The notes under the pieces were generated by a model. The model was not told the DNA's origin and did not search any database. It saw only the letters and a list, made by a program, of their open reading frames with translations. From Takashimella koratensis (taxonomy: Eukaryota > Basidiomycota > Tremellomycetes > Trichosporonales > Tetragoniomycetaceae): a stretch of DNA of 64,000 nt. The position numbers and the translations under genes were made by a program. This document shows, piece by piece, positions 20,951 through 49,769 of this stretch. Position 1 is the first letter of the stretch; the number at the start of each line of letters is the position of its first letter. The stretch covers positions 1,607,486 through 1,671,485 of the forward strand of contig BCKT01000001.1 in the NCBI GenBank assembly GCA_003116875.1, read 5' to 3'.

Positions 20951-23900
20951 CTAGCTGTTGGGGACGGTGTAAGGGATGGTGACACGCCAGACAAGAGCCT
21001 GGTTGTCAAGGGTGTAGCCGTAAGGGTCGACGTAAGAAGCGCCGGCCTCGTAGCCGTTGATGGAGATGAAGTCGTTGTCCGAGAACGAGAAGAGGAAGTA
21101 GTCGTTCGGGTAAGCGGCGTCGCCGACCGAAGCGAGGGCGCTAGACTCCCACTTGGAGTTGATGAGGGTCTCGTTGAAAGTGCCGTCGTTGTGAAGACCG
21201 AAGCGGTTGAGCTGAGTGTCGTCGATCATGTCGACGAACTCGGTGGGGACGGCAGGGGTGATGGACGAAAGGAGGGTGCCACCGGGGGCAACGGGAGTGT
21301 ACGAGGTGGTGTACACGGTGTTGGCAATGTCGGTAGCGCCAGAGGTGCTGATGAGCATGAAGTCCTTGTGCTTCGAGTCCTGGTCGGTGTCGCCGTTGGC
21401 CTTGCCGTCACGAGAGAGGATCATGAAGGTGTTGTCGTTGATGTACTTCATGTCCGAGGCGGCGAGAGTCTTGCCCTTGCCGTTGGTGACCGGGAGGGTG
21501 ATGACGTACGAGTTCTTGAGGACGGGGCTCGACGGGTTGGAGATGTCGTATGCAAGCATACGGGTGTACTGGCCCTTGTCACCGGCGGCGTCGCAGTCCT
21601 GGGTCAGAGCCGACTGGAGGAGAGCGTAGAGCATGGTGCCCGAGGGGTTGGTGGTGAGACCCTCGAAACCCTGGTTCTGCTGGCGACCACCAGTGGGGGC
21701 AGTCGCGCAGTTGGCGCAGAAGTAGAGCGAGCCGTTGAGGACCGGGAGGAAAGCGGTGGGAGGGACAATGGTAGACATGAGAGTGCCCGACGCGCTGTAA
21801 CGGTAGATGTAAGGTCCGTATTCGTCCGAGACCCAAACGGAGCCGTCAGGGGTGATGGCGAGACCCTCGGCATCAGTCGAAACGTGGTTGTACGAGTTCG
21901 ACGCGATGGGGAGGTGGGTAGTTCCAGAGTCGTTGCGGTATGAGGTAGCGTCAAGACCGGTGGTAGCGACGCCGTTCGAGTCGTAGTAGAGGACCTCGGA
22001 GTTGTACGAAAGCGGGAAGGTTTGGGCAGCGGCCTTGAAGTAGTCAAGGTTCGCAGCGCCGTAGTAAGGGTTAAGAGTGAAGTCAAGGAGCAAGTGACGA
22101 GCGACGTAGTCTGTGGTGGACACAGTGTTGTGACCGCGGTCGGGCTGCACCATCATCTGTCCGGTGTACGAGGTCGAGTTCACCTTGTTGAAAGACACAA
22201 GGCGGATGGCGGAGCCGATACCACCAATGGTCTCGCCGCGAGAGTCACGTGCGTCACCCGAGATGAATCCAAAGCCGACGAGACCCTTGTTGATGAAGGT
22301 AGCACCGTTGAATGAAGCCGAAGAGGCGTAAGCGGCGAGGGGCTCGGTGAGGGTAGCAGAGGCCGAAGCGCTGGCCGATGAAGAGCTCGCGGAACTCGTG
22401 GAGTTGGCGGAGGCGGAGATCGTCGAGTTCGCAGAGAACGACGAGGACACCGACTTGGACGCAGACGCCGATGACGAGGACGCGGAGGCAGTGATCGAAA
22501 CAGAGACAGACGAGGAGCCCGACTTGCTGCCAGAAGAGGTGCTCGAGACGACCGATGAGAGAGAGGCAGAGGCGGAGATGGTGGAGGAAGCCGAGAGCGA
22601 GGAGGAGCCGCTCTTGCTCGCGGAGGATGAGGAGACCGAGCCCGACGAAGAAGCCACCGAGGAGACCGAAGAAGGGGCGGCAGACGAGGCGCTCGAGGCC
22701 TTGCTGGTGGACGAAGAGGCGGAGACGAACGCAACCGACGAAGAAGAGGCGACCGAAGCGCTGGAGACGCTGGAAGCCGACGACGAAGATGCCTTAGAAG
22801 CGGAGACAGAGCTTGCAGCCGACGACGACGACGCGGGGGCGACTGACGACGAAGACGAGACTGGCGCGGCGCTCGAGGAGGAAGCCGGTTTGGAGGCCGA
22901 GCTAGAGATGGCGGCAGCGGAGGAAGAGGAAGCGGCGGGAGAAGCAGAGCTCGAGGCGGCAGCAGGGGTGGAGCTCGTTGAGGCCTTGGAAGCGGAGCTG
23001 GCCGAAGCGGCAGCAGCGGAAGACGACGACTGCGCCGCGGGGGCAGACGAGCCGGCAACGACCGAGCTAGACGAGGCCGCCTTGGAAATTGAAGAGGTCG
23101 AGGAGGTGGAGGAAGCTGCCACGGGGGAGGAGGAAGCAGCGACTGGGGTCGAAACAGCCGCGGCAGAAGAAGCCGGGGTGGCGGAAGAAGTCGCCTTAGC
23201 CGAGGAGGCGGCGGCGGGGCTGCTCACGGCGGCGGGAGAGCTGACAGCAGCCGGAGACGAGACCGCAGCCGGGGAAGAGGAGGCCGGGGCAGACGAGACG
23301 ACAACAGGGGAGGAGCTGGGAGTAGTAGACGCAACGACCGGGGTAGTGGTGGCACCACCCGAACCGCCCGAGCCGCCCGAACCGCCACCGACAGTGACAG
23401 TGACGGTCTGGGTAACGACCTGGGGAGCCGAGACGTAGAAGCAAGCAACACCGATGAGGTCGTCAAGGGTGAGGGTAACGTTCTCCATGAAGATGGAGAT
23501 GTTGAAGTTCTGGCGCTGGACGACGGGAACCTGGAGGTTGATGGTCTCGGGCTCGACGAAAACGTAGGTGCAGACCTCGTTGGCGGCATCGGGGATGAGT
23601 GCCGGGAGGGTGTGGTTAGCGAAGGTGGTGGTCGAGTTGCTGAGGGTGTAGCCGCTGCCGGGAGTGACGGAGACGGTGGATCCAGAGGCAGCCGAGACAA
23701 GGGTGGTGGTGTTGGTCACGTTGTTCTGAGGAGTGTAAGCGGTTGCGGACGGGTAGGGAAGCATGAGACCTACAGAGGTGATGGTGATCGAGGTGAAGGT
23801 GTCGTCGCGAGCGAAGAGCTGGGCGAGCGACGGCTCGAGGTGGACATCGGTGCGCTTGACAGCCTGTGAGAGATGAACATGGTGATGATGGACAATGACA

Positions 23901-24189
23901 ATTTGAAAAAAAAAACGATTGTTTATCGTCAGCGTTTTGATTGTGCCTGGCGAAGAAGCCGGTGGACCGAAGGATCCGAGAAGTCCGGGTGGGGATTGGA
24001 ACTGGGAAGGGTGATGATGATGGGTGATGTTCAACTCACGTCGTCCTCGGAGATCACCGATCGGTGAGCGAGCTGGCGGCCCTCAATAGAGTGAGCGACC
24101 GAGCCCTCGGCGCCTCCGCGGGTGCGGAGCGACGGACGGGCGACAGCGAGCGCCGCAACGAGCGCAGTGGAGAGGACGTGGGTGAGCAT
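20951..24189 (-). CDS. Secreted phytase-esterase-like protein with a long Ser/Ala stalk
   Basis: Two exons, 24189-24040 and 23863-20951, join in phase 0 and give 1,020 aa. The N-terminus MLTHVLSTALVAALAVARP is a clear signal peptide. Residues ~50-250 are a Thr/Val/Asn-rich domain with many N-x-S/T sites. Residues ~250-550 are almost only Ser, Ala, Val and Pro, mucin-like and surely O-glycosylated. The C-terminal ~470 residues match the esterase-like phytase domain (PF13449 type): GLVGFGFISGDARDS, Q-P-D-R-G-H-N, D-A-E-G-L-A-I-T-P-D-G-S-V-W-V-S-D-E-Y-G-P, NQGFEGLTT and N-D-N-T-F-M-I-L-S-R-D. That beta-propeller family is often secreted or wall-bound; activity on phytate is not established for fungal members. 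No terminal GPI signal is visible. Long frames on the opposite strand across the stalk are shadows. Confidence 0.85.
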
Positions 24190-32150: not shown

Positions 32151-32742
32151 TCACTTGGGAACGACCTTGGCTGGCTTGTACTGGCGGGCGGCGATCACAC
32201 GTTCTGCCTTGGTGAGAGTGCGGCGAACCTTGTAGTTACGCTTGAACTGGCCGGATTGTTGCGTACCTCCACAAGTCTCGGGAGCCGTCTGATTGCGATG
32301 TTTCAACCAGGTTTACCGTATCTGTCAGCAACCATTTCCTTCCTCGCTTTGCGGAAAGTTGAGACTAACCTGCGGACAGGAGGTACCGGGGAAGTATGAT
32401 TTCGAGGTCCCATCAGCTGCGTAGTACTGGCAGAGGCCGCTATTGCCATTGCAGGTGTACCTGAAGTCGATTGAGTCAGATCCTCCTAACAGTCGCAAAC
32501 GCATCGATGAGATTGCCGACTCATTCGAGGACGTACCTGCAGTTGTAATTTGAATCAACTGAGTCAAAGGTGCAGGAATCCCCGTCGAAAGTGACCTGAG
32601 AGGCGTCGGGACACGAGTAATAACAGGTGACGCCATTAGATACTGTGCTTCGCTTGCCATTGGTCTGCGTGCCCGTCGTCGCTTGCACGGCGGTGCTGAA
32701 AGTGGCGAGGGCGATGAGAGCGGTGGAGAAGTTGATGAGCAT
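32151..32742 (-). CDS. Small secreted cysteine-rich protein, array copy 1
   Basis: Exons 32742-32537, 32460-32370 and 32288-32151 give 144 aa. MLINFSTALIALATFSTAVQA is a clean signal peptide split here as a ~20-residue leader. N-G-K-R at 28-31 is a dibasic (Kex2-type) site. The core holds eight Cys with spacing C-x3-C-x12-C-x10-C-x3-C-x6-C-x17-C-x7-C; the last is in T-C-G-G-T. Q-F-K-R follows, another dibasic site, and then a basic tail N-Y-K-V-R-R-T-L-T-K-A-E-R with R-Q-Y-K-P-A-K-V. Intron 1 falls two bases after the fourth Cys codon (phase 2) and intron 2 after C-P-Q (phase 0), as in all eight copies. Expected products are a disulfide-rich mature protein and a released tail. Function unknown. 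Confidence 0.85.
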
Positions 32743-32893
32743 TATGCTGGGTCGGCAAACATCAGCGCGAGCAGAAGAGACCGCGAGACGACTTGATACA
32801 CTGGAAAGGCGCGGATGCTGGTTTGTTGCAGATTCCCATCTTAAATGTTTGCATCTCAAGGGTGCCCACACGGTGAGCAAACAGCCCATTACG

Positions 32894-32902
32894 GTACAGT
32901 AC
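32894..32902. promoter_or_regulatory. GTACWGTAC motif copy
   Basis: GTACAGTAC lies 152 bp upstream of copy 1; a perfect 12-bp palindrome TACTGTACAGTA sits 33 bp further out at 32935-32946. Confidence 0.4.
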
Positions 32903-33139
32903 ACAGTTCGGACGTACACAATACCCAGTCCGCCTACTGTACAGTATTTACCCTCGCCAAGGATAACCAGCGCCACCATAGAGCCTTGGCTAAGCATCCT
33001 GTCTCAATGAGTGAACCAAATTTGGGCCTGAGCACGAGGGGGAGGGCGAGAAACACTACTTGGAGAAGATGGGCGGTCACTCTCGGTACCCTTATCCAGG
33101 AGAATGGTTTCGGTGTCTGTCGCTGAAACTGTGCTGTTT

Positions 33140-33148
33140 GTACAGTAC
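33140..33148. promoter_or_regulatory. GTACWGTAC motif copy
   Basis: GTACAGTAC, 398 bp upstream of copy 1. Confidence 0.4.
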
Positions 33149-33266
33149 CCATGCACATTGAAATCCAACCCATGGAACAGCCCTTGCGCCCATGACCGGA
33201 CGTCCCTTTCAAAATGATCCGTCTAGAGTTCCGCTCTGGCACCTCCGTCCTCATCTCCGGAGAAAA

Positions 33267-33327
33267 CCCTTGCACCAACTGATGCTTGATGTCAGGGCCC
33301 AATTCCAAAACAACAGTCCATCCGACG
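33267..33327. repeat. Conserved array upstream element, copy E1
   Basis: It reads CTTGCACCAACTGATGCTTG, then TGTCAGGGCC and, after ~20 bases, CATCCGACG. It lies 525 bp before the start of copy 1 and matches elements before copies 2-5, 7 and 8. Confidence 0.6.
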
Positions 33328-33469
33328 TTCCCAATTGACCCGATTGCCCAAGCTCCAGGCAGTTGTTTGCATTGTGCCTTTAGACTTGAGCACATCGACT
33401 CGCATCTGGACACGATGTTCAAGTAGGAGGGCGTACAAAACAGTGCCACGGTATGATTGTCCGAACCAA

Positions 33470-33478
33470 GTACAGTAC
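33470..33478. promoter_or_regulatory. GTACWGTAC motif copy
   Basis: GTACAGTAC, 728 bp upstream of copy 1 and 165 bp past the stop of copy 2's neighbour space. Confidence 0.35.
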
Positions 33479-33642
33479 ACGCCCAGATGTGACTTCGACA
33501 ACGAGGGCCCAATGCAACGAACTGAATGGGCATGTCAAGCATCCTCCCGTCCACCGTTGTAAATGAAACAATATACCCAAAGGAAACCTAGAATAACAGA
33601 AGAGACGTCCATAGCAATAAATGACAGACACCAAACAACTCA

Positions 33643-34227
33643 TCATTGACTACCGGCAACCTTGGCCGGTTTGTACTGGCGAGCAGCGATGATGCGTTCG
33701 GCGGCAGTCAAAGTACGCCGCTGTTTCCAGTCACGTTTAAATTGCTGGTTACTTTGTGTTCCACCGCAAGTTTCGGTGGTGGTCTGTTGATGGTGCATTT
33801 TGAGCAGGTTTTCGAGCTCTGTCAGCAAACATTCCACGTTTTGCCGCAGAGGGGAGAATCTCACCTGGGGGCAGTTAGCACCGATGAATCCTGATGTCAA
33901 AGTCCCGTCGCCTGTGTTGTACTGGCACGAGACGATCGTACCGCCACTGCATTCGTACCTGACGGGGTCAGTCTCAGCCGGCGAAGGGGTTGATGGGAGC
34001 GTCAATCTAAGCACAACTTACGTGCAGTCGCCCGCGGAGGTCTGGGAATAAGCGCTGCATCCACTCCCGTTAAAGGTGATTGTTGAGAGGGCGGGGCAGT
34101 TGAAATAACAGTTGACTCCGTTGGACGTTGTGCTTCGCTTCCCATTGGTGTTCGTCGCCGGAGCGGCTTGAACAGTGGAGCCAAGGGCGACAAGCGCGAC
34201 GAGGGCCGCCGACAGATTGAGGAGCAT
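33643..34227 (-). CDS. Small secreted cysteine-rich protein, array copy 2
   Basis: Exons 34227-34022, 33958-33865 and 33783-33643 give 146 aa. The signal peptide MLLNLSAALVALVALGSTVQA is followed by N-G-K-R-S-T. The core cysteines are spaced x3, x12, x10, x3, x7, x17, x7. The third exon carries T-C-G-G-T, Q-Q-F-K-R and a tail with Q-R-R-T-L-T-A-A-E-R and R-Q-Y-K-P-A-K-V. It differs from copy 1 mainly in the loops between cysteines (for example the S-G-G-T-I-V-S loop), while the signal peptide, dibasic sites and tail are nearly fixed. All eight Cys are present, so it is probably functional. Confidence 0.85.
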
Positions 34228-35173
34228 GTCAACAAACGATAGTCGGAGCAGAAGATGCCGCAAAGTGCTTAGGGAGTTGGTTAAAGAGATGTAGCGGGTG
34301 AATGAAGAAGGGTCAGTTAAACATCAACAACTCGGTCAGTTACGCCGCGAGCTACCAGCCTCCGAGTTTGTTTGTGGAAGCTGGGTAAGCGTCGTGAATG
34401 TTGTGCTCCGGACATGCTCAAGCTGGCTGGGGATCGCCTGTGCCACCATGGGAAGCCCCCAGGCAACTAGTCTCATCGACAGGACAAGAACTCTATACTT
34501 GAACACGACGAGGACCAAAGACTTATTTTGGGCACGTCAACGAAAATCCTGAAGGAGGCGTGTGAGTTCAGGAGTGTGTGAGTGTTCAGGATGGTGTCCG
34601 TGCTCGTTGCTCATGTCATCCCATGTAATCTGCGTCCCATCCATCGGAATCGGTTTGACTCCACACATCGGACAAGGTCAATGATCCTGAAAGATATGGA
34701 GAAAAAGCTTGCACCCCCTGATGCTTGTTGTCAGGGACGCTACAAACAAATAGTTCATCCGATGATCCCAAAGTCATTTTGCCCGACATGGCAATTGTCA
34801 ACCCCGCGAAGCTCCGGTACTGTGGACACTGCGCCTACTGTCTTTGTTTCAGAGAGCCCAGGCATTGAATGCATGAGCTATAGCGTCTGCAGCCCAAGTG
34901 TTGCCGGGATGGGCTTCGTCGATATCGCCCAGAGGTGACCGCGATCTTTCTGAAGGCAAACCTTAAAGAAGGGGCGCCACAATTTGAAGAATATCACTCA
35001 GCGCACGCGCAAAATTTGACTTTGACAATCAAAACACGACGACGGCATGAGTGTGTCCAGCACCGACACATTCGTCGTTGTAGGTGAAAGGACATTCCAT
35101 TATACCCAAAGGAGAACCAGGACCAAAGAGACGAGAGATAGTGGAGAATGAGAGAAACGAGACCGCCGTTCCA
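34228..35173. other. Promoter space of array copy 2
   Basis: No gene. It contains upstream element E2. A GTACTGT half-motif lies near 34816. Confidence 0.45.
34706..34764. repeat. Conserved array upstream element, copy E2
   Basis: It reads CTTGCACCCCCTGATGCTTG, TGTCAGGG and CATCCGATG, and lies 479 bp before copy 2. Confidence 0.6.
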
Positions 35174-35743
35174 CTATTGACTAGCCGAGACCTTGGCTGG
35201 CTTGTACTGGCGTTCGGCAATGAGGCGCTCGGCGGCGGTGAGAGTACGCCGTTGTTTGCCATCACGCTTAAACTGATTGGTACCTTGGGTGCCACCACAG
35301 GTCGCTGCCCCTGCTACCTGTGATCATGAAGTGGAGCATAGTTGCGGTCTTGATCAGCGCTGGCCTTATTGTGGTTGGGGAGGGCGAAAGACTCACTGGT
35401 GGACAGACGGTAGCCGTACCACTACTTGACAAGGTCCCGTCGGTGGTGCTGTAGATGCATTGCGTGGCCGCTTCACACTGGTAACTGCAGAAGTGTGAGT
35501 TTGATTCTATCCACGTAGCCACGTCACTGAAAGAGGCGTTGAACTTGACAAGGCGTTACAACTTACAGCCTGCGGTTGTTTGGAAAATGAAACCGCCGCA
35601 GGCTACGCCGCCATAAGTGACTTGTGAGAAGTCCGGACACGTGAAATAACAAGTGACGCCGTTGGAGATGGTGCTTCGCTTGCCCTCCGTGTACGAGGCG
35701 GGGTTGCCAGGGTAAAAAGAGTAGTGGCGAGGTTGACAAACAT
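35174..35743 (-). pseudogene. Array copy 3, frameshifted in the signal-peptide exon
   Basis: Exons 35743-35563, 35484-35397 and 35317-35174 keep the family splice positions. ATG 35743 begins MFVNLATTLFTLAT, but the dibasic site and core (Y-T-E-G-K-R-S-T, then S-N-G-V-T-C) are in another frame. The ATG-to-GKR distance is 59 nt against 84 nt in copy 4, a 25-nt deletion that removes the end of the hydrophobic region and the cleavage site. No ATG precedes the core in its own frame. The first intron uses a weak GTTGTA donor. Downstream, all eight Cys, K-R, R-R and the Q-Y-K-P-A-K-V tail are intact, so the loss looks recent. An unseen upstream exon is the alternative. Confidence 0.65.
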
Positions 35744-36862
35744 CGTGCTGGGACAACAGAGGGTAGCTCGAATGGAGGAAAGTGTAGGACCACTTGTAGA
35801 GAGTAAGTCAGTTGAGAGTTGGGGCGAGATTGCAATTGCTGAACATATACAGCGATTATTCATGCCTATTTAAGGGCGCAACATCTTGGCTGTTGAACAG
35901 CCCCGGCTCTCTTCTCGCCGTTTCCGATGGAATGTCTGCTTTTGCTTGTTGTTTTAGCTAAAGGAGGCCAGTTCATCCCCCAGTTTACCTTCACGTTCCA
36001 CTCTGCGCTTTCCCAACTGATGATCGCCCTCACCATGGGTTGTCCACCACGCACCATGTCTCACTCATCGAGTCAACCGAAAAGCGAAGCGATGGACCGG
36101 TTCATAGCAACTTCGATGGTGAAGGCGATTGATAGGAAGGGCACAGCCACGGCGCTTGTGCCCGTTGCTTTCAACGGTCGCGTCAAAGTCCCATCCATTG
36201 GGTTTACAGCATGACACCGGACGGTCCTCAATTGATTGTTCGTCCTACCAGTCCGGCCTAGCCAAAATCCAGTCTTGGTGACGATACACAATACTAAATT
36301 GCGGGAAAACCGGGAAAAACCCTTGCACCAACAGACGCTCGCTGGCCGTCAGGGCTAACTTAAAAAAGATATGGTATATCCGACAATCCAGTCCCATGCG
36401 ATGCCCAACTTCTTCAAGGCAGTTGTTACTGGTCTTCGGTTCTTCAAGCACGCAAGGCACACTTCAGAGGAAAGAGCATATGCATGAGCAGTAGCTGCCC
36501 GGAATGCTTGGGCGTTCCTGGCTGGGTGTTGTCTACGTGGGACTCTAGGGCCGGACATCGACCAGCGTGTCGAATGCAGACACAACAATGCTCACTTTGG
36601 GGACGGAAAGCGAATCCACCTCACGATAACTAGTACGACATCCAACCGACCCGTCGCCATAGGGAGCCAAAGTGCAAATCACATCTCTCAGTACAGGTAC
36701 AAAAGAAATGTGAAAACAGGTTCAGAGTGACGGGGTAAACCGGAGCAGGTCACTACGGACCACTCACGCATCCTATGAAGAGAACAAAACGCCCAGAAGA
36801 AGATACATCCCAAGGGGAGAAAAGTGGAGCGGAGACCCGGTGGCAGGCAATTGGAGGGGCGT
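35744..36862. other. Promoter space of array copy 3
   Basis: No gene. It contains upstream element E3. Confidence 0.45.
36320..36384. repeat. Conserved array upstream element, copy E3
   Basis: It reads CTTGCACCAACAGACGCT, then GTCAGGGC and ATCCGACA, and lies 577 bp before copy 3. Confidence 0.55.
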
Positions 36863-37464
36863 CTACTCAGCGACCTTGGCTGGCTTGTACTGGCGTTCGG
36901 CAATGATGCGTTCCGCATCGGTGAGCTCGTGACGAGCGATATTGTCTCGCTTGAACTGGGTAGGACCCTGGCTCCCACCGCAAGTCATGGAGGTTTGCTG
37001 ATTACAGTTAACGTTGATAGGGGATTGACATGTTTTCCATACGTCAGCGAGGTGTCGCAGTAGGTAAAGCGTGAAGCGCTTGAGGTACGTACCGCTGGGC
37101 AAACGATTGGCCCGTTAGTAGAGGTGAATGCGCCGGTCCCGACGTTGTACTGGCAAGTCTCCATGAACCCGCCGCAGAAGTACCTAGAAAAAGGAACAGG
37201 CTTCAGTTGCAACTCAGACAGGTATCTGAAGACAATGTCATTGATTTGATCTACTTACATGCAGCCGCCATTACCACCAGACATGAGACTCGAACAGGGG
37301 GTTCCGCTGTAGGTAACCGCGCTGGGATCGGGGCAGTTGTAGTAGCAGGTGACGCCGTTAGATACCGTGCTTCGCTTGCCCTGTGTGTACGTCGCCGGGA
37401 CGGCTTGAACGGCGGTATAGCAAGTGGCGAGAGCGACAAGGACAGTAGAGATGTTGACGATCAT
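36863..37464 (-). CDS. Small secreted cysteine-rich protein, array copy 4
   Basis: Exons 37464-37259, 37183-37093 and 36997-36863 give 143 aa. The signal peptide MIVNISTVLVALATCYTAVQA precedes P-A-T-Y-T-Q-G-K-R-S-T. The Cys spacing is x3, x12, x10, x3, x6, x17, x7. The second Cys-loop is Gly-rich (M-S-G-G-N-G-G-C). After Q-F-K-R the tail is D-N-I-A-R-H-E-L-T-D-A-E-R and R-Q-Y-K-P-A-K-V, so the R-R pair seen in most copies is R-H here. It ends three residues earlier than copies 2 and 3. Eight core Cys are intact; there is one extra Cys in the signal peptide. Confidence 0.85.
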
Positions 37465-38549
37465 GTTGATGGACTGCAAGAAGGTGCTGCTGCGTTGAAG
37501 AAAGGGAGAGAACTGCGAACAAGAGCGACTAGGATATATGAAGTGTCGGAAGAGAAAGGGTTGAGGACCGGTTCGGGGTAGGCAACGCAGAAGTTTGTTT
37601 ATGTACGTTGCCATCGACTCATCCTCGTTGCTTGGTCAGTCTGCTGCAGCGCGTTGCTCTCCCTTGTAGGCTGAACACGCAGTAGGTCTTCTGGACGAGA
37701 CGTTGCGTTTCATGAGTACGACTTCATATCGCCAGTTGGGAAGCGCAGTCTCCGTCAGCGTGGAACAGCATTTTGAAAAGGTTCATAACCTGCCCTTCAA
37801 GCAGAAGGCACTGGTAAGGGATGGTGTTTTCTCATGGTGCCAACCCCCAAGTCGGTCGTTCCGTTGGATACGGATTCCCATCCATCGAGATCGCCACTGT
37901 CCAGCCAAGTTGAGCCGGTCAGGCACAATAACATTCGGGACACGCTTGTAGCCAACCGATGCTCATCCCGTGCTTACCTAACATCAGGGCCCTTCCGTAA
38001 GGTCCCAATTGATCCGACCCCTGGACGGAAAGTTGTTTACGCTCTCCGAATCCGCAGAGTTGGCCTGTGCGTTGTGCTTGATTCGCAGGGAATAAATTCA
38101 GGAGCTGCATCTGATCTACTTCAGTCGCCCAAGGCAAAGTTTTTATGGGACTCGCATGGGCAAGCTCCACATCTATTCAGTAACGATGTGGCCGCGTCCG
38201 TGCCGGGGAAAATCGGCCAAGCAGTCAACAACGCATCAGGTTTCTCTCTCCCTATCGTTAACAACCTCCGAGTCCCGATACGACGTGATTGTGAGACCGC
38301 CATGTTGATGACAGCGCGGTGCACTATTGAGTCATATCGGGAAACGAGAAGAAAAGAAGAGGCCATGTACAGTGTTTGCTACTCGGTATACCGCAAACGT
38401 CGCCCCGACACCGATGTTAAGATCTCCACGACCAAGTCGAGCACCTGCACATGCATTGATCTGTGAGATAAAACCATATGCCCAAAAGGAACAAAGTGAT
38501 ACCAAAGAGACGTGAATCGCAAAGCAACGAGAGCAACCATTATGTGCAC
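37465..38549. other. Promoter space of array copy 4
   Basis: No gene. It contains upstream element E4. Confidence 0.45.
37943..38018. repeat. Conserved array upstream element, copy E4
   Basis: It reads CTTGTAGCCAACCGATGCT, then ACATCAGGGCCC and GATCCGACC, with a ~12-base insertion relative to E1. It lies 479 bp before copy 4. Confidence 0.55.
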
Positions 38550-38920
38550 TCATTGACTATGGGCCACCTTGGCGGGCTTGTACTGGCGCTCGGCAATGAT
38601 CCGCTCGGCTTTGTTGAGAGTGCGTCGCGCCTTGTAGGTACGCTTGAATTGGTTGCCGGCTTGGGTGCCTCCGCAAGTCTCGGAGGCTGCCTGTTCATCA
38701 TCATTCGCGATCGATTGAATGACATCGGTATCACACATCAGCGATGTGTTCAGTGCGTTGACAGGGGAATCATCAAGGGGACTCACGGCCGGGCAAACGA
38801 TACCTCCTGAACCCCTAGCGAACGCGCCGCTCCCCACGTCGTAGGAACAATACTCCGTGTTGCCGTTGCAGGTGTACCTGAGGAAGGTGGATGAGTCAAC
38901 AATAAACTCGATGCCAGGAG

Positions 38921-39010
<90 letters not shown>

Positions 39011-39364
39011 AAGGGGTGCGGCGCAGTGTAGAAGCTCAAAGGCAGACCAGAGACTGGGCACTGTGTGGCTTGCCTCCCTCCTACGTCTATCCCTAGCAAA
39101 ACCCAACTCCGTCGCCAGCTATGGCATGGTAACAAAGGACGTCGGTGGGACTTACTGGAAGCTGCCTGCTGATGGAGAGTTGGCGATATAACTCTGACAG
39201 GGATTGCCTCCGTACGACACTTGTTGGGGGGTAGGGCAGGCGTAATAACAGGTAACTCCGTTGGATGTCGTGCTTCGCTTCCCTTTGGTGTTAGTAGCCG
39301 GGGAGGCTTGTACGGCGCTGAGAGCTGCGAGCGCCATGAGAGCCGTGGAGACGTTGACGAGCAT
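38550..39364 (-). CDS. Small secreted cysteine-rich protein, array copy 5 (one core Cys lost)
   Basis: Exons 39364-39156, 38877-38787 and 38690-38550 give 146 aa. The signal peptide MLVNVSTALMALAALSAVQA is one residue shorter than its siblings', followed by N-T-K-G-K-R-S-T. The fourth core cysteine, just before intron 1 in every other copy, is Phe here (TTC for TGC), leaving seven core Cys and one unpaired. The tail is K-A-R-R-T-L-N-K-A-E-R with R-Q-Y-K-P-A-K-V and ends A-H-S-Q. Intron 1 is 278 nt instead of about 75-80 and contains 76 consecutive G on the plus strand (C on the transcribed RNA). Splicing of that intron may be impaired. The frame is otherwise intact. Confidence 0.75.
38934..39009. 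repeat. Poly(G)76 homopolymer inside an intron
   Basis: Seventy-six consecutive G on the plus strand lie wholly inside intron 1 of array copy 5. The true length is uncertain, since such runs assemble poorly. Large open frames across it (poly-Gly or poly-Pro) are artefacts. Confidence 0.9.
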
Positions 39365-39861
39365 AGTGGTGGATGACTGCTGACGGAGAGGAGCACAGAA
39401 TACGTGTGTAGCTCGGGGAGAAAAAGATGTGGAGAGTGGTTGGATGTGCATATGTATGAACTTTCGGTTTTGTGTCTGACGAGGATGTAGATCTGGTGAT
39501 CAGTCCTCTCCTCTCCACCGGCCGCCCCAGGAGAGAAAATTGTGGGGCGGATGGGCTGAGACGTCGAGGTCGAGGGCGTGTTTGCATGAAAACGAGTTCG
39601 AAGTCGTGTGCTGTGCTTTTGGAGAGACTCGCTGGGCATGTGCTGTCCTTCGGTAAAGGCGGGGGCGCATTCTATTTGCGGTCACCCTTCAGAGGATGCC
39701 CTGGGCTCTCTCTTTCTCCGTACATCTCCTTCATCTTGATGAGAGATCGACGTATGGTGACAGCTCGTTAGAATGATCTTGTCAGTAGGAAATCCAGTTT
39801 CAGCCAAGAGCCATCAATTTACCAGAATCGTCTGTGACCCAACGCCTTCAGGCACATCCTT

Positions 39862-39900
39862 CAATGCTTACGTTCAGGGGCCAAGATTTCGAGCCATCCG
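39862..39900. repeat. Conserved array upstream element, diverged copy E5
   Basis: It retains ATGCTTACGTTCAGGGGCC and GCCATCCG in the order of E1, lacks the CTTGCACC part, and lies 498 bp before copy 5. Confidence 0.4.
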
Positions 39901-40362
39901 AAGCTCCCGATTGCTTCAACGCCCGCGCTGCAGTGATACAGTAGCGTGCCATCCAGGTGAGTCTGGGGGACTCGCCTGTCGGCCCTCATCGATCAACTAT
40001 GTTGTCCTACAGCGACTCTGAGTCTCGTGGTTCAAGAGAAGGGGGAGTGATGAGCCGATCAAGGCACCGTTTTGCGGCTGCCGCGCCCGAGTTGACGTAA
40101 CGTCAATCTTTGCTCACGTCAGAGTTACTCCTAGCCTTGTACATGTATATGTAGCAACCCTGTCACCTCTCAGGATGGGGGCGATGATTTGAACCTACAT
40201 AACACTTGCGTTGTCCAATTACATAAACAGCAAGCTTGGTTTTGGGTTTTCGATGTGCTCAGGGCAAGTTAGAAATATCAAGTCGCACAACGTATGAACG
40301 TACAAATACCGAGGTTGTGTCGACCCAAATTCAGCCGATTGAGAACATGCAATGCAGGTTCG

Positions 40363-40371
40363 GTACAGTAC
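40363..40371. promoter_or_regulatory. GTACWGTAC motif copy
   Basis: GTACAGTAC, about 1.0 kb upstream of copy 5. Confidence 0.35.
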
Positions 40372-40627
40372 GTCTGGTCCAAAACGTCCACCTCTCATAC
40401 ACAATCACTAAGCCCCATGTTGGCCCGGCGCTGGCTTCCTCTTCTTCGAGTCGGTCTTGACCAGCTTTCCATCTCTCCCCAGTACGTCACATTTTCAAAC
40501 ATGCCGAAAGTGGATACATTTGCTTCCATGGTACAGCCAGATGGTGGCTGATGGGGCAAAACATCTCGAGGCATTTACAAACCCTGGAATATCCGACCTC
40601 CGAAACAGGTGTGCGGGTTATGGCACA

Positions 40628-40636
40628 GTACAGTAC
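40628..40636. promoter_or_regulatory. GTACWGTAC motif copy
   Basis: GTACAGTAC within CACAGTACAGTAC, 73 bp past the stop of copy 6. Confidence 0.35.
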
Positions 40637-40708
40637 ATAATTTTAAGCTGAAACCAGCTGAACGGCTACAGATGGTCCGTGAATGGGGTTGAAGGTGTTC
40701 GGCGATAG

Positions 40709-41305
40709 CTATAACCCATGATATTCGCGCTTGACTAGTTTGTGCTTGGATTCACGTGCAGGCATGACGTTATCCAATGGCGCAAGGGAGCGCTTTCGTT
40801 GCTTGAAGTTTCGTCTAAATGGGTTGGTCTGTCGTGATCCACCGCAACTCTCTGCGGCCGCCTGTTTCGAATCGCGCGATCAGTGTCAAGCTTGAGACTG
40901 GGAAGTTGTCGCGGAGGGACGACCAGGACTCACGGTCGGACAAGTAGTACCAGTTGAGGAAAAGGACAATGAACCATCAAGAGGACTGTATGCGCAGGTC
41001 GCGGTGGTAGTATTGCCCGAGCAGATATAACTAAATCAAGATCAGAAAGCGGCGGTGGGGAGCTGTATTCGGTACGGTGACGCCAAAGGCACTTACTCGC
41101 AATCCCCAGTCGAAGAGTCCGCTATCAAGCTGGCGCACCGCTGTCCTTGATAGGTGACGCTGGATGGCTCTGGACATGTAAAGTAACAGGTGTCGTTGCT
41201 GCTGGACGTGATTCTTCTTTTACCGGGTGAGTAAGTCGCGGGTATCGCGTGGACGGAGGTCCCCAGTACCAATAATGCGATGAGGAAGCCGAACCGGACA
41301 AGCAT
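40709..41305 (-). CDS. Small secreted cysteine-rich protein, array copy 6 (divergent tail)
   Basis: Exons 41305-41097, 41030-40934 and 40861-40709 give 152 aa, the longest copy. The signal peptide is MLVRFGFLIALLVLGTSVHA, then Y-S-P-G-K-R-R-I; all other copies have K-R-S-T. The Cys spacing is x3, x12, x11, x3, x8, x17, x7, with all eight present. The second dibasic site is N-P-F-R-R, and the tail is rewritten: Q-R-K-R-S-L-A-P-L-D and E-S-K-H-K-L-V-K-R-E-Y-H-G-L, without Q-Y-K-P-A-K-V. It still carries dibasic pairs, including a third K-R near the end. It is the most divergent member and has three GTACWGTAC motifs in its upstream 450 bp. Confidence 0.8.
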
Positions 41306-41536
41306 GGTCTGTCGTAGCCAAAGATGGACTTCGGAATCACGAGTATGGGGAGATCGATGCGTGAACAAGCTTGTGCTCTGAAGTTCAAGTATTTGAGTCT
41401 GCACACGACGACCGCGGCAAACAGACCTGTCACAATCAGAAGGAAGGACCCCATTTCCCTGCCCTCGTAACTGATGGAGACGCTTACACTGGCGTGGGTG
41501 TTTAAAACGAGGGGACACGCCCACGCCCTTGTGCAT

Positions 41537-41545
41537 GTACTGTAC
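41537..41545. promoter_or_regulatory. GTACWGTAC motif copy
   Basis: GTACTGTAC, 232 bp upstream of copy 6. Confidence 0.4.
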
Positions 41546-41671
41546 ATTCCTCACCATCTTAGCAAAGCGAAAGGAGGCGGTGCGAAGCCCTCGCTACATA
41601 ACAATCTGGCTCGACAGGTTGCCTAAACACATTCCCTGGAACCCTGCTCGTTTCCCACCCCTCGTTTTGGC

Positions 41672-41680
41672 GTACAGTAC
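41672..41680. promoter_or_regulatory. GTACWGTAC motif copy
   Basis: GTACAGTAC, 367 bp upstream of copy 6. Confidence 0.4.
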
Positions 41681-41752
41681 CGTATTTGCGGCCCGGTAGG
41701 TGATATGGTTTTCCCTGCACATGCAGCTTGCAGTCGAGACGCCCTACCGTTT

Positions 41753-41761
41753 GTACTGTAC
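41753..41761. promoter_or_regulatory. GTACWGTAC motif copy
   Basis: GTACTGTAC, 448 bp upstream of copy 6. Confidence 0.4.
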
Positions 41762-42205
41762 GATGGACTGTGCCCGTCGTAGGTTCTGACCACAACAACA
41801 TCGTCTTTGCGGTGCTTTACTGATTCCGGCAAGGCACTTCAAGAGGCGTCAAGCCTTTCCGTCGCCTCGTGTCGTTGCTCAGGAAGGGTGACAGTCCAGG
41901 TGTCAGCCAATGCCCTTTTTCAGGGACCCGCCGTTGGTGCCTGCCCCTGTGTGATTCCGTTGACAAACAACCTTGAACCCAACCCATGGCCACAATTTTC
42001 CGGCGCAGTTTGGCAAGGGGCCATGGCGGAAATTGGGGGAGCAGCAAACAACGCCCGATGCCGGTCCTTTCCCGTGTATGAGTACACTGGAGACCAATCT
42101 CTCATGGTGATCGCTTGGAACTTCAGCATGCCACCGCTTGTTCCCTTCGGAATGATATCATGCGAAGTTTCTTCCAGCATCTCCGAGCTGCGGATTGCTG
42201 GGGAG

Positions 42206-42226
42206 CCCCCCCCCCCCCCCCCCCCC
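42206..42226. repeat. Poly(C)21 homopolymer
   Basis: Twenty-one consecutive C on the plus strand, intergenic between copies 6 and 7. Confidence 0.9.
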
Positions 42227-42526
42227 TTCCGGAACTGCGTCCACTCAAACGGATCGAGAGACAGTCGCAGAAGTCACAGACTGGGTGACGCTGACCAGAT
42301 CTCCCAGAGGCTACAATGAGACAAACGCTTTCCTCATTTTGGCTGCCCGGAGGATGGATGTGACGCTCAAGGGTATGGTGGACAACTGCCGGCCACAGGC
42401 TGCGACCCAGATCAAAGATCATCCATCGCTGTACGGAAGAGAACCATGTGCCCAGAAGAGACAATAGAAATTGATTCAAAGAGAAGAGGAACCTGAATAG
42501 ATAACAGGTGTCGACGCGTGCCGTGT

Positions 42527-43105
42527 CTATGGAATCGCCTTGGCGGGCTTGAACTGGCGCTCAGCAATGACGCGCTCCGCCTCCGTGAGATCGCGTTGCA
42601 CCTTGTCACGCTTGAACTCGCCGGTACCACCGCTTCCACCGCACGTCATTGCCGCAGTCTGTTTGCCGATCATCGTCGTTGTTATTATATTTCATTATTT
42701 TCACGGCGGGGATTTTCTGGACTCACGGCTGGGCATGACGAGGAAGAAGATCCTGTCAATTGACCGGTCTGTGTGTTGTACGTACAGCCTCCGTTTAGAA
42801 AATTGCAGGTGTACCTGTGTCATGAAGTGGTTGAGTGAGCTCTTGCCGATAGAACCTGTGCGACATTTGCGACAGGGAGTGCAAGAAGATTGTATGACTT
42901 ACACACAAGTACCACCAGTGTTTGAGAGCAAAACCGAGCACGATTCTCCACTAGCAGTGACCATGCTGGGTGATGGGCATTGGTAGTAACAGGTGACACC
43001 GTTCGACACGGTGCTCCGTTTTCCCTCAGTATGAGTAGGAGCAGCTTGGACAGCGGTGCCCAGGGCGAGGGCGACGGCGAATAGAGTGGACAGATTGGCG
43101 AGCAT
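42527..43105 (-). CDS. Small secreted cysteine-rich protein, array copy 7
   Basis: Exons 43105-42903, 42814-42727 and 42658-42527 give 140 aa. The signal peptide MLANLSTLFAVALALGTAVQA is followed by P-T-H-T-E-G-K-R-S-T. The Cys spacing is x3, x12, x10, x3, x6, x16, x7; the sixth loop has a Ser run (G-S-S-S-S-S-C). The third exon reads M-T-C-G-G-S, G-E-F-K-R and a tail with Q-R-D-L-T-E-A-E-R and R-Q-F-K-P-A-K-A. Its leader is close to copy 8 (M-L-A-N-L-S-T-L, P-T-H-T-E), pointing to a late duplication of that pair. All eight Cys are present. Confidence 0.85.
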
Positions 43106-43676
43106 GTCAGGATGGGCTTCGGGGGATGGCGATCGTGGTAGGAGGTGAAGAAAGGTGGAGAGGAAGAGAAAACAATAGCAGGAGTGATTGTGGGGTATGA
43201 AAAGCTGGGGACAGGTAGGATGGCCTCCAACGCATCAAGACGCTTGTTTGTTTGTGAGCTCCAGACCAGCCCGTCCGTTGAATATTTTAGCATCCATAAG
43301 GCTAATTGGCGAAGTACCTTAGGGGATGTTATCCTGAACAAGCTTGTATCAACCGACGCAGCAATCAGGGCGGGCGGGGTATTCAGTCAGTTTCGGGTTT
43401 TAGGGTGTTGAGGGCCGACCATTCTCGCGGACCACTTTGAAGTTTCTCATCCAATGAAACAAAGTTAACGAGGCGTTTTGGACGACTCTGAAGCGCTCCT
43501 TTGCGGCTTGACTTGTTTACCGCATGAATTACATACCGACCGAGGAGAAGGTGCCATTCAATGACCTTTACTGTGCATCGCGATCTGGAGAACAAGTGCC
43601 CAAAAGAAAAAATAGAGTAATTTACGGAAGCAGAAGTGCTATGCGAGCAGATGACCAGTGTCCTGGAGTGTACCGT
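43106..43676. other. Promoter space of array copy 7
   Basis: No gene. It contains upstream element E7. Confidence 0.45.
43333..43370. repeat. Conserved array upstream element, copy E7
   Basis: It reads CTGAACAAGCTTGTATCAAC, then CGACGCAGCAATCAGGG, and lies 228 bp before copy 7. It is nearly identical to E8 and a shorter relative of E1. Confidence 0.55.
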
Positions 43677-44295
43677 CTACGCAACGACTTTTGCCGGCTT
43701 GAACTGGCGGTCGGCGATGATACGTTCAGCCCTAGTAAGAGAGCGTCGAACTTTGTAGTCTCGCTTGAACTCCTGGGAACCCGGACTGGCAGCACCACTG
43801 CAATCCATGGTGGTCGTCTGTTTCCGATGGATGTCAATTCATTGCGTACATTGTTGTCCCCCATCAACCAAGGGTTATGAGTGATACTTGCTGTACTCAC
43901 AGAGGGGCAACCCATGCCCGTGTCAGCCGAAGAAAGTGTGTCGTCTGCCGCGTTGTACGTGCAGCTGGTTGTAACTCCTGCGCAGTCGTACCTGCGTCAA
44001 GGGAACATGTGAGCATTCGCTACAGTGATGTACAACAGATAGACACCTTCAAGAGACAAACCAAGTAAATGGAAGAGCTCCGCACAACTTACGAGCAAAC
44101 ACCTCCGGTGCTTGAAATGAATGAAGCGCACTCTTGACCGTAATAGCCAAAGGAATCGACAGTGGGACATTTGAAGTAACAGTTGATGCCGTTAGACGTG
44201 GTACTTCGTTTGACCTCGGTATGAGTAGGAGCAGCTTGAACAGCAGCTCCGAGCGTGACGAGGGTGACAAGAAGGGTCGAGAGGTTCGCGAGCAT
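43677..44295 (-). CDS. Small secreted cysteine-rich protein, array copy 8
   Basis: Exons 44295-44093, 43991-43901 and 43817-43677 give 144 aa. The signal peptide MLANLSTLLVTLVTLGAAVQA is followed by H-T-E-V-K-R-S-T (Val where others have Gly before K-R). The Cys spacing is x3, x12, x10, x3, x6, x17, x7; the final Cys sits in M-D-C-S-G-A instead of T-C-G-G. The second dibasic site is Q-E-F-K-R and the tail has V-R-R-S-L-T-R-A-E-R and R-Q-F-K-P-A-K-V. All eight Cys are intact. It is the upstream-most copy and borders the SNG1-type gene. Confidence 0.85.
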
Positions 44296-44985: not shown

Positions 44986-47038
44986 TCAAGGCTGCGTGCG
45001 ATCCCTTCTCTCTTGCTCCTGCTTCGCTGCCGCCGCTTTGGCCTGTGTCCGATCCATGTTCCATCGTTCAAACGCGAGGGCGAGTGGGAAACAGATACAC
45101 TCAACTCCGATGATAGCGAAGAGGACCCCGAAATGGAGTCCGAGCCGGTGCGTCAAGTTGGTCCCATACGTAATGATCTTGTACGCCTGGAAAAGTGTTA
45201 AATGCATGTACGGGTTTAAAATGACGTACCTCAATGTTGTGGTAGAAAGGCATCGCGCGGAGGAGCCGATAGAAACGATTCATTAATTCGATTGGGAAGA
45301 ACGACGATGCTAGAGGTGAGTTTTTGGATCAACCGTTTTAGACTCTTACAGATATTCACTGTAATGCCATCGTCAGCTTGAAGAACACTCTACAGAGCTA
45401 ATTCTCGGCCAGAGAAGACTTACAAATAATCCACAGAATGAGGAAAAACGGTAGGTTCATAGGTCCCACCAGAGCTGTCACGGTCTCCATCGCCCATCCT
45501 GCTGCCCAAATAGTGACGAAGTTGAGTGCCCAGAGCGCTGGGAACCCTCCTCGGCCAAGAACATTCTCCATCGGGATTTGCCAGGCGCGTTCGATAGTGG
45601 TGAATGCCAGCGACATCCAGAAGTAGCAGAAGATTGGCCAGGCGAGGCGGATCTTGAGCATGCTGGGGAAGCGGAGTTTGCCGGCGAGACCGGTACGGAG
45701 TCTGCCCTGTGCGGCGTAGAGAGCAACTAGAACTGGCTCAGCGAGGACTCGACAGGCGGATGAGGGAGAGTGACTCACTGCAGAAGGCGAAGATGACAAA
45801 GTAGATGAGGCCTGCCTCCATTGGCGCTGAGCAAGACGAAGAGACAAGTTAGCGATCAATCTATTGAGATGTGGGTTTACCCAACAAATATACTCACCTG
45901 CTCCCGCCCACTGGTTGTTCTCGATCGGCCGCACGTCAAACTGGGTGTACCCAAACCCGACCCCGATTGCCTGAGGCACCTGCGCTGCCAATTCCAGTGC
46001 GGTCTGGTTCCCCTGAAAGCTGCTCACAAAGCTCTGCAACGCGTTCGTGCGTGCCGTCGCTAGCGGGTTCGCAATGAACTCGCCGAGGATTGGGATGAAA
46101 TACAGCAAGACAACCTGGTAGAACCTTGCAGAGCTGTAGTAGAATCCCATCGCGCCAGTGGGGTCGTAGCTCGCGTCACCAGTAGTCAAGGCCGTCTGCC
46201 ACGCTGTCGTTGCGTTCGCATTGACAACTAGGGCGGCCCAACATCGCTGCGCCACAATATCTGCCCGCACATCGGCCAGTCCGTTTGGGTAGTCCGAGGG
46301 CGAACGGACGGTCCAGCTCACGTGAGGAACGGAGTTGGGGAGAGCGTTCTCGTATCCCGCTTGTTGGATAAGGGGAGAGTTGAGGAAAGCGGAAGAGGAT
46401 TCGTCCAAGGGAATGAGGAAGAAATTGAGTTTGGGGAAGAAATCTTCGATCAGGTAGGTCGATCCCCAGAACAAACTAAGACACGCCCAGACCCAGAGCG
46501 CCATGAGGAGGAAGACAAGCCCAAGAACCTGGATCACTCGTCAGTTCGATCTGGGAGTGCAAAACCAGTGGAGTTGAGGTATCTAGCAGAGATGCAGCAC
46601 GTGGGGAACGGTGCAAGCTAACGAGGAACTTACTTTCAACGCCTGGCCGCGTTGCTTCTTGACCTGCGGGTGATAGAAATGATACTTGTCCTGCTCCTGC
46701 ACCTTGCTGGCCGCCGCGCCTTCAGCCGCCGCCGCTCCGGCCCCTGTCTTTGCCCCTACTCCATCCTTCTTTCCCTCCCTCTCCGAAGCCCGCGTCTCCT
46801 CATGCTCCTCCTGAACGCTACCAACGCCCGCTGAGCCGGCGGTACCGTTTCCGTTTCCGTTCCCGTTAACATCAGTCGCCGTCTTCGCCGAGGCTTTGGG
46901 GCTCCCACCGTCGCCATGCGTGGAGTCGCGGACGGTATCTTCCGAACGCGTGCGGTTCCCGATCGTATTTGTAGCTGTGTCGCGAGAGCCAGCGATATCG
47001 CTAAGCGGTGCGCCCAAGGTTGGAATTTCTCCTGTCAT
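44986..47038 (-). CDS. SNG1/DUF3533-family membrane protein, copy a
   Basis: ATG 47038 is the first Met; the cytosolic N-terminus (~135 aa) is Asn/Gly/Ala/Glu-rich and disordered. After an intron comes VLGLVFLLMALWVWACLSLFW, the first membrane helix, then an extracytosolic domain with V-N-A-N-A-T-T-A-W and Y-D-P-T-G-A-M, S-A-R-F-Y, and a C-terminal bundle of about five helices after several introns. The last exon ends ~45233-44986 with a basic/Gln-rich tail. This layout is that of yeast Sng1 and relatives (DUF3533), plasma-membrane proteins linked to nitrosoguanidine resistance and phospholipid asymmetry. It faces copy b head-to-head across 893 bp. The substrate or partner is unknown. Confidence 0.8.
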
Positions 47039-47931: not shown

Positions 47932-49769
47932 ATGTCGACCAAGTACTCGATATTCGCGCGGCAAGGGCCCGATGGATCGCCGCGATATGGGTTTTGGGCG
48001 CCCGAGCTCGCCCAGGCTCGCAAGGGGTGGTTCAAGCTCGTCTTCATGGTGAGTCTTGTCCAAATCTAACGTGACCTCCTTCAACGATCACTGACTAAGT
48101 TCCAAACATAGACGCTGGGCCTGGTCATCATCGCCATGTTTGCTCTCTTGGCATGTTATTTTGGGAGTTACTAGTGAGTCCCTACCAGCCTCTACTCGGC
48201 CGCCCATACTGACACTACCCCTCAGCGATCAGATCTCCCGCGCTTCCCACTTCTCCATCGATGTACTGGACCTCGACTCTGCGGCCTCTCCGTCGGGCTC
48301 CGTTGCGCACCCGGCTATCCTTGGTCCCGCGATTCGATCCGCTATCGTTACGGACCAGACCACCGCTCCACATCTGGGGTGGTACATCGCCGACAACGCG
48401 ACTATCCGCGAATTTCAGCTGGTTCCAGGTGGACAAGGGATCGTGCCGTTCGACTATGCCTCGCGTAGGGTGTTGAACCAGGACGTGTGGGGGGTGTTGA
48501 TCGTCAATGCGAACGCGACTAGCGGGACATGGAACGCTCTCACATCGGGTGCAGAGTGGGACCGTGAGTGTTGCATTGCACTATTGCCTCTCACAATCTT
48601 CCACAATGACTGGACTGCTGACTAGGCACATGCAGCTACTGGTGCGCTCACGTTCATCTACGAAGAGGCTCGCAACTTTTACGGTACCGACCAATACGTC
48701 TCCCGCCTCGCCTTGGGTCTGATGACCAGTGCCGGCTCATCAGCATCTACCACACTCGCTTCCCAGGTCCTCGCGCTCTCTAACGCTTCCGCCGTCATCA
48801 CCTCCGCCATCTCGTCAGGTGCGCTGATCGGCTCATTCAGCAACAACATGCACAATTTACGTCCATTTGATGAGCTCGCCGGAATCGCGGCGACGACCGT
48901 CGGAACCATCTACCTCATCATCTTCACTTTCCTTATCTCGGTCTCGTGGAATACCCGAGGACTCAAGTACATCCAGGAGAGCCTCACGCTCAGTTCTGAG
49001 GTCGCTGTCAAAGTTGGGATCCCGCCGCTCTTGTACTTCTGGCTCTCGTTGAACTACTCGCTCGTCAGTCTCGCTTTCAAGGTTACGTTCAATCGATACT
49101 TTGGACGAGTCGGTTTCGTCATCTATTGGATGAGTAATTGGGTCGGGATGACCGCCTTGGGGTTGGTCATGGAGACAGCGTTCCTTTGGTTTGGTGAGTG
49201 ACAAATTTTGGAGCGAGGAGAGTGTTCTGACAACATGTCTAGGTCCCTTTTTCCCGTTCTTCCTTGTCTTCTGGGTCATTCTCAACGTATCCGTTGCCTT
49301 CCTGGAGTAAGTGCCTTCGGACAAGTGATCAGGACGCGGGCGAAATGTCGGGATTCATTTGGAGGCCCTTGGACAAGTCATCAGAAGATGAGCTAAAAGT
49401 CGAGACTGGCCTAATGGACAAGGAGGCAGGGGAAACCGCTTCGTTCAATATTGTACTGACACTTCTCGTCCAGCATCTCCGACATGCAGACGTTCTATCG
49501 ATATGGCTTCATCACTCCAGTATGGAACATCGGTGAGTCATTTGTTCATACAGGACGTAGATCACTCACTGACTATCTCAATCTCCGCAGTGGACACGAG
49601 CAAGGCAATCATTTTCGGGACGAAAAATCATTTGCCTCAGAATTTCCTGGTTTCAATAGGCTGGATCGTGGTCTGGGCAGCTCTCTTATGCGGGACGGTC
49701 GTGTACCAGCGGAAGAAGAAGGAGGCGGCGAAGTTGCGTGAACAGACGGAGCAGTCGGAGAAACGATAG
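47932..49769 (+). CDS. SNG1/DUF3533-family membrane protein, copy b
   Basis: The start is ATG 47932; the frame upstream is open but lacks an ATG. Introns are 48049-48111, about 48175-48225, one after E-W-D, and several short ones after 49190. Order: a short cytosolic segment with R-Y-G-F-W-A-P-E-L, TM1 LGLVIIAMFALLACYF, an outside domain with I-V-N-A-N-A-T-S-G-T-W and (across an intron) D-P-T-G-A-L-T-F, a Ser/Ala-rich middle, then the multi-helix half with V-G-I-P-P-L-L-Y-F-W-L-S-L-N-Y-S and N-R-Y-F-G-R-V-G-F, ending in a Lys/Glu tail. It matches copy a motif by motif but lacks its long disordered N-terminus. Probably about 460 aa. Confidence 0.8.

Follow-up and report, generated by a model that had tools for sequence, protein, structure and literature searches.

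Tandem genes for secreted cysteine-rich proteins with two predicted Kex2 sites and a conserved, mostly basic tail in Takashimella koratensis

What product comes from a row of small genes whose precursors each carry a leader, two dibasic sites and a cysteine-rich middle part? The question is posed by a 64,000-nucleotide stretch of Takashimella koratensis DNA (the window, C1:1607486-1671485 of a 25.1-Mb genome in 24 contigs), in which positions 32151-44295 hold eight minus-strand genes of one family, side by side. Our analysis suggests, with somewhat less than even confidence, a secreted disulfide protein that Kex2 would free from a pro-segment at either end, of which the basic one at the C-terminus probably serves as an escort in folding or sorting.

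Array organization and gene models

A sequence-only reading had described eight same-strand genes within 12.1 kb, 1.2-1.9 kb apart from start to start, and both points hold, the distances being 1485, 1516, 1721, 1900, 1941, 1800 and 1190 bases. Common to the eight genes are a K-R site, a cysteine core, a [KR]-R site, a tail and two introns. Splicing was modeled by enumeration of GT-AG introns, and signal peptides were assigned by eye. Seven of the eight genes give full precursors of 140-152 residues, copy 3 being the exception.

Copy 1: 32151..32742, minus strand; exons 32742-32537, 32460-32370 and 32288-32151 (stop); 144 residues, eight core cysteines
Copy 2: 33643..34227, minus strand; exons 34227-34022, 33958-33865 and 33783-33643; 146 residues, eight core cysteines
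Copy 3: 35174..35743, minus strand; core starting at 35684 and exons ending at 35174, in a frame other than that of the signal-like ATG at 35743
Copy 4: 36863..37464, minus strand; exons 37464-37259, 37183-37093 and 36997-36863; 143 residues, eight core cysteines; third-ranked splice model
Copy 5: 38550..39364, minus strand; exons 39364-39156, 38877-38787 and 38690-38550; 146 residues, seven core cysteines; fourth-ranked splice model
Copy 6: 40709..41305, minus strand; exons 41305-41097, 41030-40934 and 40861-40709; 152 residues, eight core cysteines
Copy 7: 42527..43105, minus strand; exons 43105-42903, 42814-42727 and 42658-42527; 140 residues, eight core cysteines
Copy 8: 43677..44295, minus strand; exons 44295-44093, 43991-43901 and 43817-43677; 144 residues, eight core cysteines

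Each of the seven precursors runs from the leader through a short pro-piece with a terminal K-R to the core (84-89 residues, [KR]-R included) and the tail (26-33 residues); K-R stands ahead of the core and [KR]-R behind it in all seven. Intron 1 is in phase 2 after Cys4 (in copy 5, after the Cys4 place) and intron 2 in phase 0 after C-P-x in 7/7 spliced copies, phases being free rather than imposed for these seven. For copies 1, 2, 6, 7 and 8 the splice filter demanded eight cysteines and the family spacing; it left one model each for copies 1, 2, 7 and 8, and for copy 6 the best of four was taken. For copies 4 and 5 we chose models one point under the top because the family frame near Cys8 is retained in them.

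The first description of the array was nevertheless too uniform. Of the eight genes, six are complete and have all eight core cysteines; in five of these an RQ[FYW] tail is present as well. The eight-cysteine consensus stands in the six, as C-x3-C-x12-C-x10/11-C-x3-C-x6-8-C-x16/17-C-x7-C, but fails in copy 5, where Phe at the Cys4 place leaves seven core cysteines, the same number as in its top-ranked splice model. Intron 1 of copy 5 spans 278 bases and includes a run of 86 G (38924-39009). Apart from this run and one of 21 C (42206-42226), the window has no single-base run of at least 15; both are possible weak points of the assembly. The signal peptide ascribed to all eight genes is joined to the core in seven. 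In copy 3 the signal-like start frame does not join the core frame, no ATG occurs in the 41 in-frame codons between the upstream stop and the core, and its intron 1 requires the weak donor GTAACG. Copy 3 is probably either broken or misassembled. Copy 6 has an R-R second site and a diverged tail that has lost the R-Q-[YF]-K-P-A-K motif claimed for all copies and lacks RQ[FYW] too. Finally, the cationic character given to the tails is not strong in every copy, the net charge being -1 in copy 4 and +1 in copy 7.

Genome-wide family and relatives

Genome searches with copy 2, and then with diverged copies, found 14 further members at seven other places, listed below. The family thus counts 22 copies at eight places, the window included, such search counts being lower bounds, and it extends beyond the array.

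C2:1535-1543k, five in tandem
C2:1814k
C16:285k
C13:912k
C1:492-494k, three
C18:269k and 272k
C15:336k

On reading, C1:2078583 and C3:815238 had no gene of the family form and were dropped, and a weak match at C12:495829 (E = 0.06) was left outside the count. In five outside copies (C13, C18a, C18b, C1c and C2F) the intron phases, left free with key peptide strings required, came out as 2 and 0; in the other nine these phases were imposed and are therefore assumed. Where splice scores were equal or nearly so, the set fitting the family was preferred; this model lies below the top score in C2A, C16, C2F, C1c and window copies 4 and 5, and ties with it in C18b. The presence of Cys8 in copy 4 and in C1c depends on the splice model chosen, and the only C13 model with all eight cysteines uses a weak donor and a weak acceptor. 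Some family introns are just 32-35 bases long.

To look beyond this genome, a profile built from the seven spliced copies in the window was run against 5.8 billion proteins, 7992 candidates sharing most words being scored; such searches cover predicted proteins that share short exact words, not unannotated genomes. One relative was found, P0001, the uncharacterized protein L201_003179 of Kwoniella dendrophila CBS 6074 (E = 2.2e-13). Searched back against the genome, P0001 hit nine places, all of them family loci (best E = 8.3e-5). Used alone as a protein query (146 candidates), it matched nothing but itself, and it was the sole match to a profile of the 21 modeled own copies plus P0001 (3483 candidates), with an E-value that is not independent because P0001 sits in that profile. 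Together with the 14 outside copies, this relative indicates that the likeness within the array is beyond chance.

The sequence-only reading had not recognized the family, and our Pfam, PDB and protein searches likewise found no characterized one. Among 22 members, Pfam at E ≤ 1 gave five families with one member each, none convincing (best, TSR, E = 0.008). The 22-row profile found no PDB chain at E ≤ 10, and the seven-row profile had two weak matches (E = 0.21 and 0.52). We found no title or abstract opening that describes such a family.

Cut sites, charge and conservation

The K-R and [KR]-R sites are present as first reported, in 7/7 spliced window copies and 21/21 modeled own copies. The first site is KR in every one of the 21, the second FKR in 19 and FRR in 2, and [KR]-R occupies the same column in 22/22 rows (21 own copies plus Kwoniella). 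The Kwoniella relative has QAR at the first site and KKR at the second. One Kex2-type locus was found in the genome (C9:420646-420941), its predicted identity resting on a P-domain (PF01483) and the reading of adjacent open reading frames (ORFs).

The two sites bound parts of very different composition. Cores hold 30 Lys or Arg in 1824 residues, with none in 8 of 21 cores (zero in that of copy 2), and the 21 tails have 26.6% Lys/Arg over 628 residues; as a rough control, seven other window ORFs have 4.1-12.7% Lys+Arg, the sole likely secreted one 4.1%. All but one of the 21 own cores have a net charge between -1 and -7, and all but one of the 21 tails are positively charged. A mature core nearly free of Lys and Arg would be expected to resist trypsin-like proteases.

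Across the 21 own copies, mean pairwise identity is 0.44 in the tail, 0.37 in the core (0.32 without cysteines) and 0.35 in the signal plus pro-piece. The ratio of nonsynonymous to synonymous differences per site (pN/pS; 21 pairs, synonymous sites near saturation) is 0.43 in the leader, 0.62 in the core and 0.52 in the tail. This is constraint, least on the core, and positive selection is not claimed. The tail motif [LM][TSN]xx[EQ][KRQ]xIxxRQ[FYW] occurs in 20 of 21 own copies, and neither the length nor the sequence of the stretch behind RQ[FYW] is constant. A composite tail query found 15 matches in the genome, all 15 at family loci; it missed 7 of the 22 known copies, so a tail on another protein may have escaped. 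As judged from these sequences, the tail appears to be conserved for its specific sequence, beyond mere basicity.

The cysteine pattern and a suggested disulfide bond

Among the 22 rows, Cys3 and Cys5 are both present in 16 and both absent in five (C2F, C15, C18a, C18b and Kwoniella); Cys3 alone is absent in one (C1c), and Cys5 alone in none. This joint loss (Fisher p = 2.3e-4, kinship ignored) suggests a Cys3-Cys5 disulfide, a bond that may have been gained by, or lost from, a six-cysteine frame. C15, C18a and C18b form one tree group (93/87, not starred), and in C2F, C18a and C18b a cysteine is present one or two positions off the Cys7 column. The tree is weakly supported, with 2 of 19 inner branches starred, and does not place the window copies in a single clade, nor does it order the six- and eight-cysteine forms.

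Known eight-cysteine and defensin-like families were considered and rejected. Hydrophobins have eight cysteines including two Cys-Cys doublets; no adjacent cysteines occur in our 23 spacing lists, and no hydrophobin profile was matched at E ≤ 1 by the 22 members. The eight-cysteine CFEM profile of Pfam is likewise not among their E ≤ 1 matches. CS-alpha-beta defensins pair C-x3-C with C-x-C, and here C-x3-C is there but C-x-C is found in 0/23 lists.

Proposed maturation and its alternatives

In the reading that we favor, the gene product would be a secreted pre-pro-protein whose leader is taken off by signal peptidase. Kex2 would then cut behind K-R in the late secretory path, shedding the short N-terminal pro-piece, and behind [KR]-R toward the C-terminal end, after which Kex1-type trimming would take off the last basic pair. 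Double cutting is deduced from the sequence regularities above together with the Kex2-type locus. The main product would be of ~80-105 residues, rich in Ser, Thr, Gly and Tyr, mostly acidic and nearly free of Lys and Arg, with three or four disulfides, and would act outside the cell. The mostly basic tail of 20-53 residues would be a second pro-segment that aids core folding or sorting and is removed on secretion. We prefer this escort role because pro-segments of several fungal effectors were required for correct folding in a foreign host, as stated in PMC8528282. Diversification of the core over 22 copies suggests variable targets, and expansion with divergence would fit contacts with partners that vary, for instance competitors or hosts. 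An effector or antifungal role, as first suggested, is conceivable.

Several observations weigh against this proposal. The core of copy 6 is intact and its tail motif gone, so the tail may be dispensable, unless copy 6 is decaying. Within the window, tails (identity 0.54) are not better kept than signal plus pro-piece (0.57; core 0.44), and the Kwoniella tail matches the motif at its end only. The charge split has exceptions in the C15 core (net +2) and the copy 4 tail. One dibasic pair occurs within the 22 cores and 0.5 is expected from Lys/Arg scarcity alone, so site avoidance is no separate evidence. An aliphatic P4 residue, described as preferred by Kex2 in PMC8528282, is missing from most copies' Kex2 contexts. 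A single-sequence structure prediction for P0001 had a mean predicted local distance difference test score (pLDDT) of 42.9, with a hint of four strands at 61-94.

The tail might instead be the active product, the precursors releasing RQ[FYW] cell-to-cell signal peptides with the core as carrier or second product. We consider this unlikely, even though the motif persists in 20/21 own copies against cores of 37% mean identity. As read from the alignment, an extra basic pair with Arg as its second residue directly precedes the [LM][TSN] start of the motif in 11 of 21 tails, and a lone Arg does so in 8; a cut there could release a peptide of ~18-27 residues. Yet each precursor has one tail, and peptide precursors are often repeat-bearing; the variable stretch behind RQ[FYW] also speaks against it, and the kept cysteines indicate that the core (pN/pS 0.62) is constrained too. 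Basidiomycete lipopeptide pheromones have a C-terminal CaaX box, and the 21 tails contain no cysteine in 628 residues and hence no CaaX, so the pheromone-like role first suggested is not borne out in its basidiomycete sense. That the tail is a membrane-active antimicrobial helix is very improbable: most tails are basic, alanine-rich and ~25 residues long, and Kex2 could release them, but the hydrophobic moment (100 degrees) exceeds that of shuffles in 0/21 rows (20 own copies plus Kwoniella, copy 6 left out; fractions 0.24-0.96) and the tails of copies 4 and 7 are near neutral.

The second site could also go uncut, so that a retained basic tail anchors an acidic, rigid core to the cell wall or other polyanions. 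The Lys/Arg content of the tails and the 57-residue Kwoniella tail fit such an anchor; [KR]-R in one column of all 22 rows does not, nor do the two near-neutral window tails, and we give this no better a chance than active tail peptides. Less probable still is that the core belongs to a known fold invisible to sequence searches, such as the KP6-like killer/effector fold. Its eight cysteines, size and Kex2 sites suggest a likeness to KP6 alpha. Effector families that have expanded and resemble known ones in structure but not in sequence are reported in PMC9632046. The lack of a convincing Pfam match or of any PDB match to the 22-row profile, the best seven-row E-values of 0.21 and 0.52 and the low-confidence P0001 model give this fold no backing.

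A wider, rather doubtful proposal is a secretion format with two pro-segments, in which an acidic disulfide core nearly devoid of Lys and Arg comes with a sequence-specific basic tail, the latter being a dedicated cis escort or silencer shed by Kex2. The tail would then define a lineage-patchy superfamily whose core is free to diversify into six- and eight-cysteine forms. Many fungal small secreted proteins are orphans without a handle on their maturation. In this family, 21 complete gene models, joined by one distant relative, indicate predicted cut points, suggest a Cys3-Cys5 bond and single out a conserved tail. Should the tail be an escort, fungal Kex2 pro-segments can be C-terminal and conserved, and the tail could serve as a signature for related families missed by core sequence.

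Intergenic elements and neighboring genes

One element, picked by eye, recurs eight times between array genes.

GTACAGTAC: 32894, 33140, 33470, 40363, 40628, 41537, 41672 and 41753

All eight window occurrences lie inside the array, against 0.15 expected by shuffles. Genome-wide there are 402, versus 242 for the reversed control; among the matches listed (100; C1, C2 and part of C3), no other 10-kb stretch has more than four. At the seven other family loci, five have none and two have one. GTACAGTAC may act in the control of part of the array.

A 28-base stretch lies upstream of copies 1-3 (33270-33297, 34709-34736 and 36323-36350; 28, 25 and 20 of 28 matching). The copy 1 version exceeds shuffles in these three copies only, and in 0 of 19 other upstream stretches, 14 of them unlinked; this confinement likely marks a trace of recent duplication. 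A shared upstream control element was rejected, as k-mers shared among the 22 upstream regions are hardly different from those in shuffles and the 28-base stretch is restricted to copies 1-3.

Rfam and tRNA scans of the window found nothing. Other features of the window are as follows.

590-1213, 2727-3386 and 8473-8940: similar ORFs that form a second small dispersed family, recognized by eye from D-[GS]-F close to L-x-L-x-[FL]-x-P; Pfam gave nothing at E ≤ 0.01
20951-24082: intronless ORF of 1043 residues that encodes a Phytase-like (PF13449) domain and has a long stretch rich in Ser and Ala
45398-46540 and 48626-49201: two DUF3533 (PF12051) ORFs on opposite strands, adjoining the array

Comparison with known systems

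KP6-type killer toxins are small, secreted, Kex2-processed proteins with eight cysteines; the family described here differs in having no sequence match to solved structures. The one relative found, Kwoniella L201_003179, shares the secreted leader, a core starting C-YY-x-CP, the C-x-Y (CxYN) and C-P blocks, the KKR second site and a tail with RQFK. It differs in having six core cysteines (no Cys3 or Cys5), QAR at the first site and a longer tail, with 29% identity to copy 2.

Kex2-type sites also free precursor parts in smut Kex2-cut repeat proteins of the Rep1 type and in precursors of ribosomally synthesized and post-translationally modified peptides (RiPPs), according to PMC8528282. In contrast to these, the present family has a single unrepeated cysteine core and one tail. 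A KEP/Rep1 repeat precursor was rejected because the two sites flank one core and no repeat is seen by eye in the alignment, no repeat finder having been run. The Kex2-processed pro-domain (K2PP) effectors of plant pathogens, such as SnTox3 and SIX1/4/6, resemble the family in having a signal peptide, a pro-piece ending in KR and a small secreted product. In PMC8528282 this class is defined by an N-terminal pro-domain; such a domain, with a terminal Kex2 motif, is found in our family, where KR stands in 21/21 own copies as a predicted cleavage site. The family departs from K2PP effectors in its short N-terminal piece and in the mostly basic, conserved C-terminal segment that stands behind a second site.

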